Source: Alphaproteobacteria bacterium (lineage in GTDB: Bacteria > Pseudomonadota > Alphaproteobacteria > UBA828). Taken from it: 15,015 nucleotides of DNA. Shown here in pieces: positions 6,004 through 14,361 of this stretch. A program made the translations under genes and the position numbers. The DNA is taken from positions 1 to 15,015 of the forward strand of contig JAPYQV010000021.1 in assembly GCA_029937205.1 (NCBI GenBank), in the 5' to 3' direction. Under the pieces are notes generated by a model. The model had not been told where the DNA came from. It saw only the letters and a list, made by a program, of their open reading frames with translations, and did not search any database. How positions within the stretch are numbered: the first letter of the stretch is position 1; every line of letters starts with the position of its first letter.

Positions 6004-6933
6004 TCACGTCTGCCCAGGCTCGTCCGGTGGCGTTGTCGCGCTCACGCGCACCCGCTTGACCCGCCTCGGGTCGGCGTCGATGATTTCGAAAGTCAGTCCG
6101 GCCGGATGGTTTAGGTGATCATGGCGGCGAGGCACACGTCCGGCGAGGCGCGAGACAAGGCCGCCCACCGTTTCGATGTCTTCGTCTAGCTCCCCGTCGC
6201 GCAGAACCAGGCTAAAATGCTTTTCAAGTGTCTCGATTTCGGTGCGTGCATCGGCCTCGACAATGCCGTCGGGCGATACACTGAAAGTCGGTGCCGGCGC
6301 GGCATCGTGCTCATCCTCAATCTCGCCGACGATCTCTTCGACCAAGTCTTCAATCGTAACCAGGCCGTCGGTGCCGCCATACTCGTCGACAATGACAGCC
6401 ATATGCAGTCGGCTGGTCCGCATCTTGGCGAGCAAGTCGATGACCGGCATGGATTGTGGAACAAACAGCAACGGCCGCTTGATTTGCTGCAGATCAAACT
6501 TATTCGCGCTGCCCCAATATGCCATGACGTCGCGGATATGCACCATGCCGACGACTTCATCCAGCGTATCGCGGTATACCGGCATGCGCGAATGGCCGCT
6601 TTTCTTGATTGCCGCGACGACATCGTCCAGTGCCGCACTTTCGTCGATGGCAATTATGTCCGGTCGCGGCACCATGGCATCTTCTGCGTTGAGGCGGCCA
6701 AAACGCAGTAAATTCATCAGCAGATCCCGTTCTTCGGGTGTGATCTGCTCGGAGATTTCCTCTTCTTCCTCGATCAATTCTTCGAGGGATTCCTGCCACG
6801 TCGTGTCACCGTTACGCGCAAATGCGCGCAAGAGCCACGCGCTAACGGAGCGGACGATGGAGGGTTCGGGGCGGCTGTCTCCGTTTGGCGAAGCCGCATC
6901 GTTTCCAGATGGAGGTTTGTCGCTTTCCTTCAT
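6004..6933 (-). CDS. corC: CBS-domain protein CorC/TlyC (HlyC family)
   Basis: This 309-residue soluble protein belongs to the CorC/HlyC family, linked to Mg2+/Co2+ efflux and often annotated as hemolysin C. A variable N-terminus and an acidic helix (ELIEEEEEISEQITPEERDLL, about 52-72) precede two CBS domains (about 85-145, with AMVPRPDIIAID and GHSRMPVYRDTLDEVVGMVHIRDVM; about 152-205, with VIVDEYGGTDGLVTIEDLVEEIVGEI). The CorC_HlyC domain fills 215-297. There is no DUF21 membrane domain, as usual for the short form beside ybeY and lnt. It starts at ATG and shares one base with the ybeY stop (TAATG), implying translational coupling. The hemolysin name is historical; the exact biochemical role is uncertain. 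Confidence 0.92.
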   Translation of the reverse strand: MKESDKPPSGNDAASPNGDSRPEPSIVRSVSAWLLRAFARNGDTTWQESLEELIEEEEEISEQITPEERDLLMNLLRFGRLNAEDAMVPRPDIIAIDESAALDDVVAAIKKSGHSRMPVYRDTLDEVVGMVHIRDVMAYWGSANKFDLQQIKRPLLFVPQSMPVIDLLAKMRTSRLHMAVIVDEYGGTDGLVTIEDLVEEIVGEIEDEHDAAPAPTFSVSPDGIVEADARTEIETLEKHFSLVLRDGELDEDIETVGGLVSRLAGRVPRRHDHLNHPAGLTFEIIDADPRRVKRVRVSATTPPDEPGQT

Positions 6934-7424
6934 TACTTTGTTACAACGCCAGCCGGCACGTAGGGATTTGTAATTCCCATACCCGCCAGCGCCTGAATCT
7001 CTAGTTTCTCCATTGTCTCAGCGTCAGAGTCATTGCCATGATCATAGCCTAAAAGATGCAGCACGCCATGTATCACGAGATGGCTTAAATGTTCCTGCAA
7101 ACTTCGCCCCGCCGTTTCTGCTTCGTGGTGCGCCGTTTCCAACGCCACCACCACATCGCCCAACGGTTCAGCGGTCGGTTGCGCAGAAGGCAATTCGGAA
7201 TCGGCGTAACGAAAGGCCAATACATTGGTGGCTTCATCAACGCCGCGATATTTCAGGTTCAAGCGGCGAACCAAAGCGTCATCGGCGAGCATGATGACAA
7301 GTTCATTGGCTTGCGGTTTGGTTGTCAACGCCAAGGCCGCCACCGCTGCTTTCCGTGTCACGCGGCGCGCTTCAGGAAGCGCGGTCCGCCATGCCCTGTG
7401 AGGTATCGTTATTGCGATCTCCAT
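6933..7424 (-). CDS. ybeY: Endoribonuclease YbeY (16S rRNA maturation)
   Basis: YbeY is a zinc-dependent single-strand endoribonuclease needed for 16S rRNA 3' maturation and ribosome quality control. From the ATG at 7424 it has 163 residues, the normal size, with the metal motif HGVLHLLGYDH complete at 119-129 and TNVLAF plus LGDVVVAL upstream. The open frame extends back to 7544, but family similarity begins at MEIAITIPHRAWR. An ATG four codons earlier (7436) is the other option; neither has a strong Shine-Dalgarno. Either start lies inside the 3' end of the 7TM-HD gene, a 53- or 65-bp overlap that is much longer than the 1-4 bp overlaps elsewhere in the operon. corC begins on the last base of its stop region (TAATG). 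Confidence 0.94.
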   Translation of the reverse strand: MEIAITIPHRAWRTALPEARRVTRKAAVAALALTTKPQANELVIMLADDALVRRLNLKYRGVDEATNVLAFRYADSELPSAQPTAEPLGDVVVALETAHHEAETAGRSLQEHLSHLVIHGVLHLLGYDHGNDSDAETMEKLEIQALAGMGITNPYVPAGVVTK

Positions 7425-9732
7425 CGGTGTCTTCATTGTTGCTGTCGCGAGTTTGCCTGTCGCCGGGCAGCACATTGCTGGCCGGGTATTCGATACGGCT
7501 GTGATAGACGCCCAAAATGAGGACCCGTGTAAAGGCGTCTTCAATGCGCGTGAGGTCGGCGATCGTCAGCGCGCAGTCGGACAACTGACCATCCGCCATT
7601 TTCTCGGCGATAATTTTTCCGACCCGTTCTTTTAATTCCGCCGGGCTGGGGTTGCCGAGGGCGCGCGTTGCGGCCTCGACGGAATCACCGAGCATGAGAA
7701 TTCCGGATTCGCGGGTCCGTGGCTTCGGTCCGGGATATCGGTAATCCGCCTCGTTGACCTGTTGTCCCGTGGTTCGAGCGTTCTCCATGGCGCGATGATA
7801 AAAAACACGCAGCAGAGTCGTTCCCTGATGCTGGGTCACGGCTTCGAGGACAGGCCGGCCCATGCGGTGTTTGCGGGCAAGATGGATGCCTTCGGTGATG
7901 TGCGAGAATATGATCCGTGCGGAGAGCTCAGGCGGCAGGCCGTCATGGATATTTCCCTCGCGCTGGTTCTCGGCGAAGTAAACCGGACGCACCGATTTGC
8001 CGATATCGTGATAGAGCGCCATGACCCGGCATTTGAGCGCGTTGGCCTCGATCGCTTCGGCCGCTGCTTCCGAGAGATTGGCGATCATCACAGAATGGTG
8101 GTAGGTGCCCGGCGATTGTAAGGCGAGAGATTTCAGAAGCGGATGATCGCCGGTGGTGAGTTCCATCAAACGGACGTCGGTAATTTCGTCGAAGGCGTAT
8201 TCGAACAGGGGCAGCAGGCCCATGGCAAACGCCGCGACCAAGCTGCCCGAGACAAGTGCAAACACGACCACAAGCGGTATATCGGCATACGCCGTGCCGC
8301 CGCCCAAGATCAGCACCAGAGGCACCGCGACCGCCTGGGCGACGGCCACGGCGGCGCCGACTTTGAGCAAATCCTTGCGGTGGCGGCAGCGCCGGGCGGC
8401 GATACCGGCCACCAGCACACCAATGAGATAATAGGCGGCGAGCCAGATGTCGCCATCGGCGTGATAGGTGACGAGGAGTGAGAGCACGACGCCGACCATC
8501 AGGCTAACCCGTGCGTTGACGAAATTGGAGACGATCACCGCCGACAGCGCGACCGGGCTCAAAAAGGCGGCCGCATGAAGATCTATGCCGATGCCTTCGG
8601 CGATGCCGCGTCCGGCGTAAAGCGCGCCGACGCAGATCAACCCTGTCAGGGTTATCGCGGCGATGGTGATATAGCCGTTCTTGCGGGTGAAATGGAGCGG
8701 TTGGCGGCCGCTGCGGAAAAAGAACGCGCCCAGTCCGACCAGGCCGGCGAGAAAAACGGCAAACGCCACACTGTCGACCCAACCAAGGCCGCCTTGGCGC
8801 ACTTCGTTCAAGGCCAGCAGGCGTGCCTGTGCGCGTTGCGTCACGCGGTCGCCCTCGCGCACGATGACCTCGCCGCGCCCGATATGCATGCTCGCCGGCT
8901 CAACGGTGGCCAGCGCATTTTCGACGGCGCTCTGGGTGGCGGCGGCGCTATACGTCACATTTGGCTCGGTCAGCGCCAGCGCGGTTTGCAGTATCCAGGT
9001 GCGCAAACTTCGCGCCGAGCCGTAGGGCGCCTCACGCGCCTTTGCCCGCATCATGCGCCAGGCGCCAGCGACGTCGATAAGCGCTTCGAAGTGAAACAAT
9101 GTTGCGGGCTCTTGCGTGCCGGTGCGAAGCAGCTGGATGGCGCCGCGCTCGGGTAGAAGGGCGCGATCCTCCATCACCATGCGCTCAGCTGGCAGGGCGA
9201 GAAAGAATGCCAAGGCGGCGCCCGCATCCTCGATATTCGGCAGCCCTTCCAACAGCTCGAAAATGCCGGCATTGACCGGCAAACCCAGCTCGGTTTCGAA
9301 AGCAGTGATGCGCTCGTTGATCGCCATGTCGGTTTGCGTCTTGCGCGTCGATACATTCTCAATCGCCGTGACGGCACCGCTGCGCCGTTCAAACAGCAAT
9401 TCTGAATCATACTCAAACTGCGGCTGCACCCCAGATTTCGCTTGGCTCTGGCGTAACGCGGTTTCTTCCGGGTCCGCGACCTCGAGGCTGCGATCGGCCC
9501 GGATGGTGTCTTCGGCAATACTGTTTAACAGTGGAACTGGCAGGTTCGACAAGCCCAGCGGCGCGAACAGGGCCGTCATGGCGATGACGAACAGAACCAG
9601 CAACGGCCAATCCAGGAGCGGGCGCGGAACGTTCCAATGCTCTTCGGCCAGGGCGCTAATGGCCGAGGAGGAAAGCAGCTCACGCTCGGCCTTAAGGCTG
9701 CGCTCAAACAAGGTCTCGGAGCGATCCGTCAT
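7372..9732 (-). CDS. 7TM-HD membrane phosphodiesterase, PgpH/YqfF-like
   Basis: The 786-residue product has the full architecture of the PgpH/YqfF family, whose Listeria and Bacillus members hydrolyse cyclic di-AMP. A first membrane helix (about 42-61) leads to a large extracytoplasmic domain (about 62-315), then about seven membrane helices (roughly 316-510) and a cytoplasmic HD domain (about 525-745). HD residues visible include H546 (SPGTYHHSVMIANLSEAAAE), H575-D576 (YHDIGK), H596-D597 (NIHDGLPPELSA), H611 and D683 (LGDSVEAATRAL). Where the family usually has His-His before Gly-Thr, this protein has H635-Q636. It starts at ATG in a 4-bp ATGA overlap with the phoH stop, and its acidic, asparagine-rich tail (about 755-786) overlaps the start of ybeY. 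Another nucleotide may be the substrate; no diadenylate cyclase is in the window. Confidence 0.9.
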   Translation of the reverse strand: MTDRSETLFERSLKAERELLSSSAISALAEEHWNVPRPLLDWPLLVLFVIAMTALFAPLGLSNLPVPLLNSIAEDTIRADRSLEVADPEETALRQSQAKSGVQPQFEYDSELLFERRSGAVTAIENVSTRKTQTDMAINERITAFETELGLPVNAGIFELLEGLPNIEDAGAALAFFLALPAERMVMEDRALLPERGAIQLLRTGTQEPATLFHFEALIDVAGAWRMMRAKAREAPYGSARSLRTWILQTALALTEPNVTYSAAATQSAVENALATVEPASMHIGRGEVIVREGDRVTQRAQARLLALNEVRQGGLGWVDSVAFAVFLAGLVGLGAFFFRSGRQPLHFTRKNGYITIAAITLTGLICVGALYAGRGIAEGIGIDLHAAAFLSPVALSAVIVSNFVNARVSLMVGVVLSLLVTYHADGDIWLAAYYLIGVLVAGIAARRCRHRKDLLKVGAAVAVAQAVAVPLVLILGGGTAYADIPLVVVFALVSGSLVAAFAMGLLPLFEYAFDEITDVRLMELTTGDHPLLKSLALQSPGTYHHSVMIANLSEAAAEAIEANALKCRVMALYHDIGKSVRPVYFAENQREGNIHDGLPPELSARIIFSHITEGIHLARKHRMGRPVLEAVTQHQGTTLLRVFYHRAMENARTTGQQVNEADYRYPGPKPRTRESGILMLGDSVEAATRALGNPSPAELKERVGKIIAEKMADGQLSDCALTIADLTRIEDAFTRVLILGVYHSRIEYPASNVLPGDRQTRDSNNEDTDGDRNNDTSQGMADRAS

Positions 9733-10760
9733 TTGTTGCCGCTCTCACGCTTTGCCGCGATTGCCGCCGCGGTTTCCTTTTCGCGTTTTTCATAGGCCCG
9801 TACGATGCGTGTGACGAGCGGATTGCGCACCACATCATCATTGGTAAAGCGAATGAAGGAAGCGCCTTTCATACCCTCTAAAGTGGCCACCGCCTCGGCC
9901 AAACCGGAGCGTGCGCCGATGGGTAAATCTATCTGTGACAAATCGCCCGTGACCACCATGCGGGAGTATTCGCCGAGACGGGTCAGGAACATTTTCATTT
10001 GCACCGGCGTGGTGTTCTGCGCCTCGTCGAGAATGACGATGGCGTTGGCCAGGGTGCGGCCGCGCATGAAGGCGAGCGGGGCGATTTCAATCTCGCCGGA
10101 TTCCAGCCGTTTCAACACCGTATCGGTCGGCATCATGTCGTTTAGCGCGTCGTAGAGCGGGCGCAGATAGGGGTCAATTTTGTCCTTAATATCACCCGGA
10201 AGAAAGCCAAGGCGCTCGCCGGCTTCGACCGCCGGACGGGATAAAATAATGCGATCCACCTGGCCCGACAGAAACATGGAGACCGCAACGGCAACGGCAA
10301 GATAGGTCTTTCCAGTGCCCGCCGGGCCGAGCCCAAAAACCAGTTCATGTTCGCGCATTGCCTCAATATAGGCAGCTTGGCGGGGGGAGCGCGGCGCAAC
10401 TGGACTCTTGCGTGTTTGAATGGGATCTACGCGAATGGCGGGGGCGGAATTACCATCCTGGTCGCGCGCGCTGGCGATTCGAATGGCAGCGTCGACTTCG
10501 CTGGGATCGACCGTTTGGCCGCGTTTCAATCGATCATACAATTCAGTGAGCACTGTTTTCGCCACATCGACAGTGTCGGACGGGCCGGAAATCTCCAATT
10601 CGTTTCCGCGCGAAGCGACCAACACGCCAAGCCCCTGTTCGAGCTGAGCTATGTGACGGTCATGTTCGCCAAACAGCATTGCCAGCAGGCCATTATCGTC
10701 GAAACGCATATGCGCCTGCGCCCCTTGCGCGCCCGATTTGGTCGCCGGATTCTGGCTCAA
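9729..10760 (-). CDS. phoH: PhoH-family ATPase (YbeZ-like)
   Basis: PhoH/YbeZ proteins are cytoplasmic P-loop ATPases related to superfamily 1 helicases, tied by context to YbeY and RNA metabolism; the exact substrate is not settled. The 343-residue protein has a short KH-like N-terminal part (about 20-95), Walker A GPAGTGKT (145-152) and Walker [10 protein letters not shown] (241-249), then the conserved [11 protein letters not shown] (270-280). The start codon is TTG at 10760, overlapping the miaB stop as TTGA, with AAGGA 8 nt upstream. A downstream ATG at 10709 would remove conserved N-terminal length. The stop overlaps the ATG of the 7TM-HD gene by 4 bp. The three genes miaB, phoH and 7TM-HD are thus coupled. 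Confidence 0.95.
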
Positions 10761-12315: not shown

Positions 12316-13125
12316 TCAGGCCGTTTTGGAAGCCCACCAGGCGTGTTTGGCCGGCTTTCCCAGGCAGCCGTGGATGCCGCGCGAGACGCCTTCAGAGATA
12401 ACCCGGTGACAATGGGCTGACATTTCCTTGCGCGATTTGAATTCCGCCATGGTGACTGGTTTGTGGAATTCGATGGCGACGGTGGTTTGCCCCAAGCTGA
12501 ACACGTTCCACAGATGGCCGGCCATTTCCATATCGCCATACCAGGCGAAAATCGGCCGATAGGTGCGCCCGACGGGGATGCCGTCCAAACGCGTATAGCA
12601 GATCGATACCGGCTGAACGGTGAGCGGCTCGCCGTTGATTTCTTTTTCCGCGACGCCAAAAAAGGCACTTTTAAACGGCAGCACCCGGTTGCCGTCATTG
12701 CTCGTACCTTCCGGGAAAAGAATCAAATTGTCGCCCTGTTCCAGGCGCTGCTGCATTTCATCGCGATGTTCCGCCGTTCGAACAGCGCGGCGCTCAACAA
12801 ACACCGTTCGTTGCAGGCGGGCCAAAAGGCCGAACAGCGGCCAGCCGCGCACTTCTACTTTGGCGATGAAGGAGCCCGGCAGAACAGCGCCGTACATGGT
12901 AATGTCGAGATAGGACGTATGGTTGCAGATGAAGAGGGTCGGCCGGGTGTGTGACATTTCGCCATGCCGCTCGATCTTAAAGGCAATAATTCGGCTCACA
13001 CCGCGGTGGTAAATCATCGGGATACGCTTGGCGAGCGGCAGGTTGAAGCGGACCAAAATTATTTGCAATGGCAACAGCGCCGCCGTCCAGCCGGCAAAGC
13101 GAAGCGCGGTAAAGAATGCCGTCAC
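12316..13125 (-). CDS. 1-acyl-glycerol-3-phosphate-type O-acyltransferase (PlsC/OlsA family)
   Basis: The 269-residue protein is a lysophospholipid acyltransferase of the PlsC family, acting at the cytoplasmic face of the inner membrane. An N-terminal hydrophobic segment (about 8-28) precedes the catalytic HX4D motif NHTSYLD (H69, D74) and FPEGTS (137-142). Its start is GTG, overlapping the stop of the upstream N-acyltransferase as GTGA, with AGGA about 9 nt before it. This coupling to an OlsB-like gene suggests it could be OlsA, which acylates lyso-ornithine lipid; family members of this kind can also act as ordinary PlsC on lysophosphatidate. Sequence alone does not decide between them. If no other plsC exists in the genome, it may do both. 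Confidence 0.87.
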
Positions 13126-13904
13126 GTTAATTTGTCCTTATATTTGCGAGTCACCAGGTCGGTCTTGACGACGATACTGACATCGACGCTATTCCATTGC
13201 GGATCGATCACCGCGCCGTCGCCCACAAATCCGTTGAGCCGCAAATAACCCTTTATTAACGGCGGTACGGCGCGTATTGCGGAACGATTATTGATTTCTT
13301 CTTTGTCCAGCCAGTTCATTTTGACGAAATGCTCGGGCTGTGCGATCGGGCGCAATTCAGGCGGCGCGAGATGAAAGTGATAGAGGTAAGACAATGTCAA
13401 CGCATGCTCAGCCGGATCGACACCCTCGAAGCTGGCGCAGCCAAACATGACCGGAACTTCATAGTGCATGACATAGGCCGCCACGCCGCGCCACAATAAC
13501 GTCATGGATGCGCGGTTGCGGTAGGGCGCCTCGACACAGGACCGGCCCAATTCAAGAATTTCGCCGGGCTGTTCCAATATCCGGTCGATATTGTATTCCC
13601 AGGGAGAATAAAAGCCGCCATGGCGGTCAGCGACAGAGCGGCGCAGAAGTCGATAGGTCCCGACAACTTGCTCGCTGCCGGCGGGACGATCCTGATCGAT
13701 GACCAAAAGATGGTCGCAATATTCGTCAAAGCGGTCGAAATCGCGCTTTTTGGCGGCCATTTCATCGCTCGGGCGTGATGTCATTTCCTCATAAAACACG
13801 CGGTATCTGAGGGATTGCGCGGCGTCGATGTCGACCGCGCCGTTTGCCAAACGCACCGACAGGCTACCCGCCGTAATACCGGCCATGAAATCTTGCCCGG
13901 CCAT
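13122..13904 (-). CDS. OlsB-like GNAT N-acyltransferase (putative ornithine-acyl-ACP N-acyltransferase)
   Basis: The protein belongs to the GNAT-fold family (COG3176, often called putative hemolysin) that includes OlsB, which links a 3-hydroxyacyl chain from acyl carrier protein to ornithine in the first step of ornithine lipid synthesis. From the ATG at 13904 it has 260 residues. Family marks are IDAAQSLRYRVFYEEM (26-41), DRFDEYCDHLLVID (57-70), VVGTYRLL (80-87) and ELGRSCVEAPYRNR (118-131). The frame is open to an ATG at 13952, which would overlap fur by 44 bp; the ATG at 13904 sits 4 bp after the fur stop. Neither has a strong Shine-Dalgarno. The PlsC/OlsA-type gene follows with a 4-bp overlap, supporting a two-step lipid pathway. 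Substrate is inferred, not shown. Confidence 0.82.
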   Translation of the reverse strand: MAGQDFMAGITAGSLSVRLANGAVDIDAAQSLRYRVFYEEMTSRPSDEMAAKKRDFDRFDEYCDHLLVIDQDRPAGSEQVVGTYRLLRRSVADRHGGFYSPWEYNIDRILEQPGEILELGRSCVEAPYRNRASMTLLWRGVAAYVMHYEVPVMFGCASFEGVDPAEHALTLSYLYHFHLAPPELRPIAQPEHFVKMNWLDKEEINNRSAIRAVPPLIKGYLRLNGFVGDGAVIDPQWNSVDVSIVVKTDLVTRKYKDKLT

Positions 13905-13908
13905 ACTA

Positions 13909-14361
13909 TTAGTCGTCCGATTCCGACCCGTCATCGTCGAGCGGGACGGCATAAAGTTCCAGTCGGTGGCCGACCAGCTTGTATCCGAGGCACTTCGCTA
14001 CCGCAGATTGCAGTGTCTCAATTTCGCTATTCTGGAATTCAATCACGTTACCACTTTTGACATCGATCAGATGGTCATGATGATCTTGATCCGCTTTTTC
14101 ATAGCGCGCCCGGCCATCGCCGAAATCGTGGCGCTCCAGGATATCGACTTCTTCGAACAGGCGCAGCGTCCGATATACGGTGGCAAGGCTAATTTTGTTG
14201 TCGATGGCATTGGCGCGGCGATGTACGATTTCCACATTCGGGTGATCCACCGCCTCCGATAGGACACGTGCGATCACACGACGTTGCCCGGTCATTTTCA
14301 GACCCAGTTCAACGCATCGCTGTTCTAAATTCGTCCCGCTGGATTCGGGGCCAGATGCCAT
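13909..14361 (-). CDS. fur: Fur-family metalloregulator (Fur/Mur)
   Basis: This 150-residue regulator resembles the alphaproteobacterial Fur/Mur proteins, which respond to iron or manganese. The winged-helix DNA-binding part covers about residues 8-85 (MTGQRRVIARVL, ISLATVYRTLRLFEEVDILERHDF), and the metal-binding HHDHLIDVKSGNVIEF lies at 94-109. There are no CxxC structural zinc pairs, typical of this subgroup. The frame extends to a TTG at 14382, but that codon lies only about 11 nt after the predicted transcription start, so I prefer the ATG at 14361; a TTG at 14370, with AGGAA just upstream, is a third option. The OlsB-like gene follows after 4 bp, so metal status may influence the acyltransferases through autoregulation. 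Whether it senses iron or manganese cannot be told from sequence. Confidence 0.93.
   Translation of the reverse strand: MASGPESSGTNLEQRCVELGLKMTGQRRVIARVLSEAVDHPNVEIVHRRANAIDNKISLATVYRTLRLFEEVDILERHDFGDGRARYEKADQDHHDHLIDVKSGNVIEFQNSEIETLQSAVAKCLGYKLVGHRLELYAVPLDDDGSESDD

Follow-up and report, generated by a model that had tools for sequence, protein, structure and literature searches.

A PgpH-type 7TM-HD phosphodiesterase gene between phoH and ybeY in an alphaproteobacterial clade without a recognisable diadenylate cyclase

PgpH, known from Listeria (Lmo1466) and Bacillus (YqfF), is a phosphodiesterase of cyclic di-AMP (c-di-AMP) composed of an ectodomain, seven transmembrane (TM) helices and an HD domain. 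The sections of the Listeria study available (PMC8177086) give its metal ligands as H514, H543, D544, H580, H604, H605 and D648, and state that it does not cleave c-di-GMP. The c-di-AMP phosphodiesterases have been studied where the cyclase is also present. Here we describe a pgpH gene in a 15,015-nucleotide stretch of an alphaproteobacterial contig (JAPYQV010000021.1, assembly GCA_029937205.1), referred to as the window. The gene belongs to a whole clade that keeps the phosphodiesterase without a recognisable diadenylate cyclase (DAC). Among the matches listed in a search of open-licence papers, no title concerned alphaproteobacterial PgpH. The features of the gene are as follows.

7372-9732, minus strand: pgpH/yqfF-type 7TM-HD phosphodiesterase gene, open reading frame (ORF) of 786 aa with ATG start
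9565-9621, minus strand: N-terminal, presumed membrane, helix, residues 38-56 (AlphaFold2 model)
8806-9525, minus strand: extracytoplasmic 7TMR-HDED domain (PF07697), residues 70-309 (Pfam, E 1.1e-24)
8185-8763, minus strand: 7TM-7TMR_HD membrane domain (PF07698), residues 324-516 (Pfam, E 2.6e-26)
7672-8106, minus strand: HD domain (PF01966), residues 543-687 (Pfam, E 5.2e-12)
7825-7827, minus strand: codon of Gln636, at the position equivalent to the Listeria metal ligand H605

The protein is a true member of the PgpH/7TM-HD family, with a TM helix and the 7TMR-HDED, 7TM-7TMR_HD and HD domains on a single chain. Its HD domain is of the PgpH type in both sequence and fold: the only sequence match in the PDB at E <=0.001 is the HD domain of Listeria Lmo1466/PgpH (E 4e-63), with 46-47% identity and a modelled rmsd of 1.4 Å. 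The AlphaFold2 model presents one N-terminal helix, the ectodomain and a helical bundle from residue 317, and its helix list can be read as one plus about seven TM helices. A sequence-only reading of the window had described a complete 786-residue protein with an ectodomain, about seven membrane helices and an HD domain, placed between phoH and ybeY, and the ORF, Pfam and the model agree with that description. PADLOC gave no defence-system match for this protein, and a defence-system identity was discarded.

The gene is rare in the class: PF07698 exceeded its cut-off in 11 of the 385 genomes sampled, with one further genome below it, and in 8 of the 21 genomes of the window's family (6/6 in its own genus; 1/1, 1/3, 0/8, 0/2 and 0/1 in the others). 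The sequence-only reading had held that the novelty would fall if nearly all related alphaproteobacteria had the gene in this place with a known role; the gene is general within the genus and not across the class. Pooling of the class and family samples gave 16 class genomes as carriers, and all 16 loci were inspected. Twelve of these genomes reach 90% completeness with contamination of no more than 5%, and four fall outside these bounds, including that of the window (87% complete, 6% contamination, 630 contigs). A 0.9-Mb genome with a sub-cut-off PF07698 match, G253, was dropped, as its locus (L031) gave no match to any of the 14 window proteins, PgpH among them.

Canonical DAC (PF02457) was not found in the window's genome or in any of the 16 carriers, and the four named control genomes matching PF07698 all match PF02457 as well. 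Above cut-off, PF02457 occurs in 6 of the 385 class genomes, none of them with PF07698. These six (G068, G090, G188, G201, G360 and G371; loci L036-L041; 0.9-1.5 Mb) have a strong canonical DAC, of 133-143 bits. A sub-cut-off match in the non-carrier G081 was dropped, being short and with an internal stop.

The 46 carriers of the phylum outside the class (non-alpha carriers) present a different picture. PF02457 matches nine of them, at 20-29 bits, three above cut-off. Ten divergent DAC-like proteins of these carriers were aligned, showing DGA in eight, DGC in two, SQDGP in all, and the RH of the RHR motif in all ten with the final R in none. Profile A1, built from these ten proteins, matches 41 of the 46 genomes, and 32 of the 37 that contributed no row to it; the misses are G485, G510, G517, G524 and G546, three of which are less than 80% complete. 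The same profile found no DAC-like protein in the 16 alphaproteobacterial carriers, and over the 385 class genomes it gave one match (the best seven candidates being scored where a genome had more). This match is in G228 (L124), a non-carrier without a PF07698 match, whose DAC-like protein keeps both DGA and RHR. Among the best A1 matches of 30 non-alpha genomes, RH is followed by N in 19, A in 5, S in 5 and H in 1; 29 retain DGA, L090 having DCA instead; and a DACNV sensor domain is present in all 30. PF02457 matches 20 of these 30 at E 0.01, so that their DAC nature rests partly on profile A1, and Pfam alone overlooks such proteins. More than one match occurs in 17 of the 41 A1-positive non-alpha genomes, some of these being pieces of one protein, and receiver and PAS domains are present in 5 of the 30 DAC-like proteins scanned (L081-L110). 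The DAC-like proteins include one of Magnetococcus marinus (G405, L092), which lacks the last R of RHR.

Most non-alpha relatives thus have a likely cyclase partner, while the alphaproteobacterial carriers have none recognisable (41/46 against 0/16; Fisher's exact test, 7e-11, among genomes that are related). A c-di-AMP system, in the sense of a DAC in the same genome, was detected in none of the 16 by either model, which bears out the earlier description of a lineage not known for c-di-AMP.

For the phylogenetic analysis, 100 proteins came from three protein searches; 59 of them and the window protein entered the full-length model, and 26 the first tree. Metagenomic proteins were labelled alpha-type or Magnetococcus-type by similarity, and also by the tree for the rows included in it; one alpha-type row, P0060, bears the name Candidatus Cybelea sp., possibly through mis-binning. 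In the 64-row tree of the HD domain and part of the membrane domain, from which seven long-branch rows were removed, the 28 alpha-type rows group together in a single clade (ultrafast bootstrap 100, SH-aLRT 99). Its sister clade comprises 29 non-alpha rows (100/99), one of them identical in protein to Magnetococcus marinus MC-1, and both together are separated from the seven others with 100/99. The first tree, of 71 rows, agrees. L015 entered as a 498-aa part of a longer ORF, the reading of L014 begins at the alignment start and not at a start codon, and L050, truncated at a contig end, was excluded from trees and residue counts. Names in the alpha clade include Zavarzinia compransoris, Z. aquatilis, Oleomonas cavernae and Oceanibacterium hippocampi.

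The single alpha clade and the common locus in 16/16 carriers point to vertical inheritance with repeated loss rather than recent gain. The suggestion of an ancestral cyclic-dinucleotide module retained here holds for an old, vertically kept phosphodiesterase; a module is not supported, as none of the 16 carriers shows the partner cyclase.

The window residues equivalent to the seven PgpH ligands are H546, H575, D576, H611, H635, Q636 and D683. The six-residue H-HD-H-H-D metal set is intact, and the seventh ligand is absent, with Gln636 where Listeria has H605; this position was not used to decide membership. This Gln occurs in 77 of the 81 alpha-type sequences, in 16 of the 31 Magnetococcus-type ones and in none of the 16 others. 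As a marker of cyclase loss it was rejected, since Gln is as frequent as His among the Magnetococcus-type sequences and most of their genomes encode a DAC-like protein; it marks the proteobacterial branch instead. In 14 of the 81 alpha-type proteins H514 is replaced by Ala (PGSYxA; P0062, P0067, P0068, P0070-P0073, P0075, P0076, P0080-P0082, P0084 and P0085). With this ligand lost, such proteins may be inactive or may use another site. Six of the 14 are on the tree, where they form a subclade distant from the window.

In the HD region, 35 near-invariant positions are common to all three sequence groups. Nei-Gojobori dN/dS for five within-genus pairs was 0.04-0.08 in the HD region, 0.05-0.16 in the membrane domain, 0.10-0.19 in the ectodomain and 0.32-0.62 in the C-terminal tail, part of which overlaps ybeY. 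The HD value was below those of ectodomain and tail in all five pairs, with synonymous sites near saturation for L014 and a similar dN in phoH. Within the genus, purifying selection on the HD domain is strong, and pgpH is therefore kept there for an HD-dependent function.

Three neighbouring genes of the window are on the same strand as pgpH.

9729-10760, minus strand: phoH, upstream of pgpH, with a 4-nt overlap
6933-7436, minus strand: ybeY, downstream of pgpH, start at 7436 or 7424
6004-6933, minus strand: corC-like gene (CBS/CorC_HlyC), continuing the string in 15 of the carriers; in the remaining one the contig stops before it

The coupled overlaps that the sequence-only reading had noticed were confirmed: the end of phoH and the start of pgpH share ATGA, and ybeY, with a probable ATG start at 7424 or 7436, overlaps the 3' end of pgpH by 53 or 65 nt. 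All 16 carrier loci have phoH and miaB upstream and ybeY downstream (partial in L027, at a contig end); corC and lnt are present in 15, and fur, an xre gene and metK in 14. Contig ends account for what is missing from L027 and for the lack of metK in L035, and fur in L028 and the xre gene in L035 were looked for at the loci and not found. The same reading had taken phoH and ybeY to be usually adjacent in Alphaproteobacteria, and the genomes sampled agree. Among 12 non-carriers of the class, 11 gave a phoH match, and in 10 of these ybeY adjoins within about 120 nt; in G012 the two genes are 0.7-0.85 kb apart. Elsewhere in the window (12316-13952, minus strand), a PlsC-like gene lies beside a GNAT gene (Acetyltransf_5, by Pfam); we presume, as with the PlsC name itself, that this pair resembles olsA-olsB of ornithine lipids.

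Residues 348-515 of the membrane domain (window 8188-8691) were modelled with a fold resembling the six-helix fold of the S-components of energy-coupling factor (ECF) transporters, and a sequence search of the PDB with this domain gave no match at E up to 10. The predicted fold suggests that the membrane domain is a ligand-binding sensor. The terms PgpH, 7TMR and HD domain do not occur in the main text of a paper on the S-component fold (PMC11109136).

Regarding other nucleotide signals, SMODS-type cyclases (PF18144) were found in none of the 16 carriers, cyclases of further kinds not being searched for, and a CBASS-type cyclase was set aside as the nucleotide source on this result. GGDEF domains are present in 15 carriers, none being found in G389, so c-di-GMP is probably made. 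The HD-GYP phosphodiesterases of c-di-GMP have an HHExxDGxGYP-type motif; the HD-GYP signature was tested for in the window HD domain and is absent.

We propose, with confidence evenly balanced, that the protein is a membrane-gated HD phosphodiesterase still cutting a c-di-AMP-like nucleotide of unrecognised source. The gene would descend from an ancestor shared by Alphaproteobacteria and Magnetococcus-like bacteria, and would survive only in scattered lineages of the Alphaproteobacteria. The ectodomain and the S-component-like membrane domain would detect a signal or a small bound ligand and regulate the cytoplasmic HD domain, whose two-metal site would open one phosphodiester bond of c-di-AMP or a close relative. 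The nucleotide would come from a cyclase unrecognised by the models used or from outside the cell. Several points weigh against this proposal. Without a maker, it is difficult to argue for a c-di-AMP-like substrate, and the DAC-like proteins of the relatives are themselves only putative makers of c-di-AMP. The H605 ligand is replaced by Gln in nearly all alpha-type proteins, qualified by the same Gln in half of the Magnetococcus-type ones, and H514 is lost in some. Profile A1, coming from non-alpha sequences, could overlook a strongly changed alphaproteobacterial cyclase, and the window's genome is among the four outside the quality bounds. Finally, the carriers are related, and the cyclase may have been lost only once, long ago, so that they do not amount to 16 independent tests.

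The main alternative is a shift to another phosphodiester substrate (a short RNA fragment, a linear dinucleotide or c-di-GMP), with the c-di-AMP role gone, which would fit the phoH and ybeY neighbours. The lasting link to these genes, the lack of a detected cyclase in all 16 carriers, the GGDEF domains in 15 of them, and the changes at H605 and, in a subclade, at H514 speak for it. However, the near-invariant HD residues are shared with the c-di-AMP-cleaving PgpH, and the conserved pocket argues against a large substrate change; Gln at H605 is probably older than the cyclase absence, being found in Magnetococcus-type proteins, and c-di-GMP is not a substrate of the Listeria enzyme in the part of that study cited above. 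We regard the shift as possible, though on the unlikely side. It is also unlikely that the carriers make c-di-AMP by a DAC too diverged for both models: the non-alpha DAC-like proteins lie near or below the Pfam cut-off and G228 shows such a protein in the class, but the purpose-built profile found none in any carrier, the 12 genomes of good quality included, and, with at most seven candidates scored per genome, matched a single class genome.

That the protein is now chiefly a membrane sensor or scaffold, with catalysis being lost, we judge distinctly improbable, since the replacements at H514 and H605 that favour it are countered by the six ligands retained in the window's group and by the low HD dN/dS in 5/5 pairs. 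The fragmented, contaminated genome and a Bacillota-like gene order (locus L015) could suggest that the gene came recently from Bacillota by horizontal transfer, or that the contig was mis-binned. This is scarcely credible, and was ruled out by the locus and neighbours common to all carriers and by the well-supported alpha clade, with its homologues named after Zavarzinia, Oleomonas and Oceanibacterium. A bolder, though unlikely, reading can also be put forward: a non-DAC cyclase family would produce an adenine-type cyclic-dinucleotide signal, and PgpH would be a ligand-gated 'transceptor' phosphodiesterase, its S-component-like domain binding a vitamin or nucleotide and controlling the HD site.

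The clade would have either a new nucleotide source or a second job of the PgpH family, perhaps linked to RNA, as hinted by the conserved phoH-pgpH-ybeY order. The predicted S-component fold offers a concrete idea of what PgpH may sense, perhaps in Gram-positive bacteria too. Zavarzinia, Oleomonas and Oceanibacterium are cultured genera, and with homologues of the clade bearing their names the substrate question is accessible to experiment.

In comparison with known systems, the window protein shares with the PgpH of Listeria and Bacillus the ectodomain, 7TM and HD architecture, with the Bacillota the phoH-pgpH-ybeY order, and with Listeria PgpH the HD fold, near-invariant residues and six metal ligands. 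It differs from both in the Gln at H605, in its separate clade and in a genome without a detected DAC. ECF S-components (RibU, ThiT, FolT, BioY) and 5TMR sensor kinases differ in that here an HD enzyme follows the membrane domain. The sister clade holds the 7TM-HD proteins of non-alpha Pseudomonadota, among them Magnetococcus marinus MC-1, whose loci as a group also have phoH upstream (27/29) and ybeY downstream (28/29, one weak), and whose genomes, unlike those of the alphaproteobacterial carriers, mostly encode a divergent DAC-like protein.
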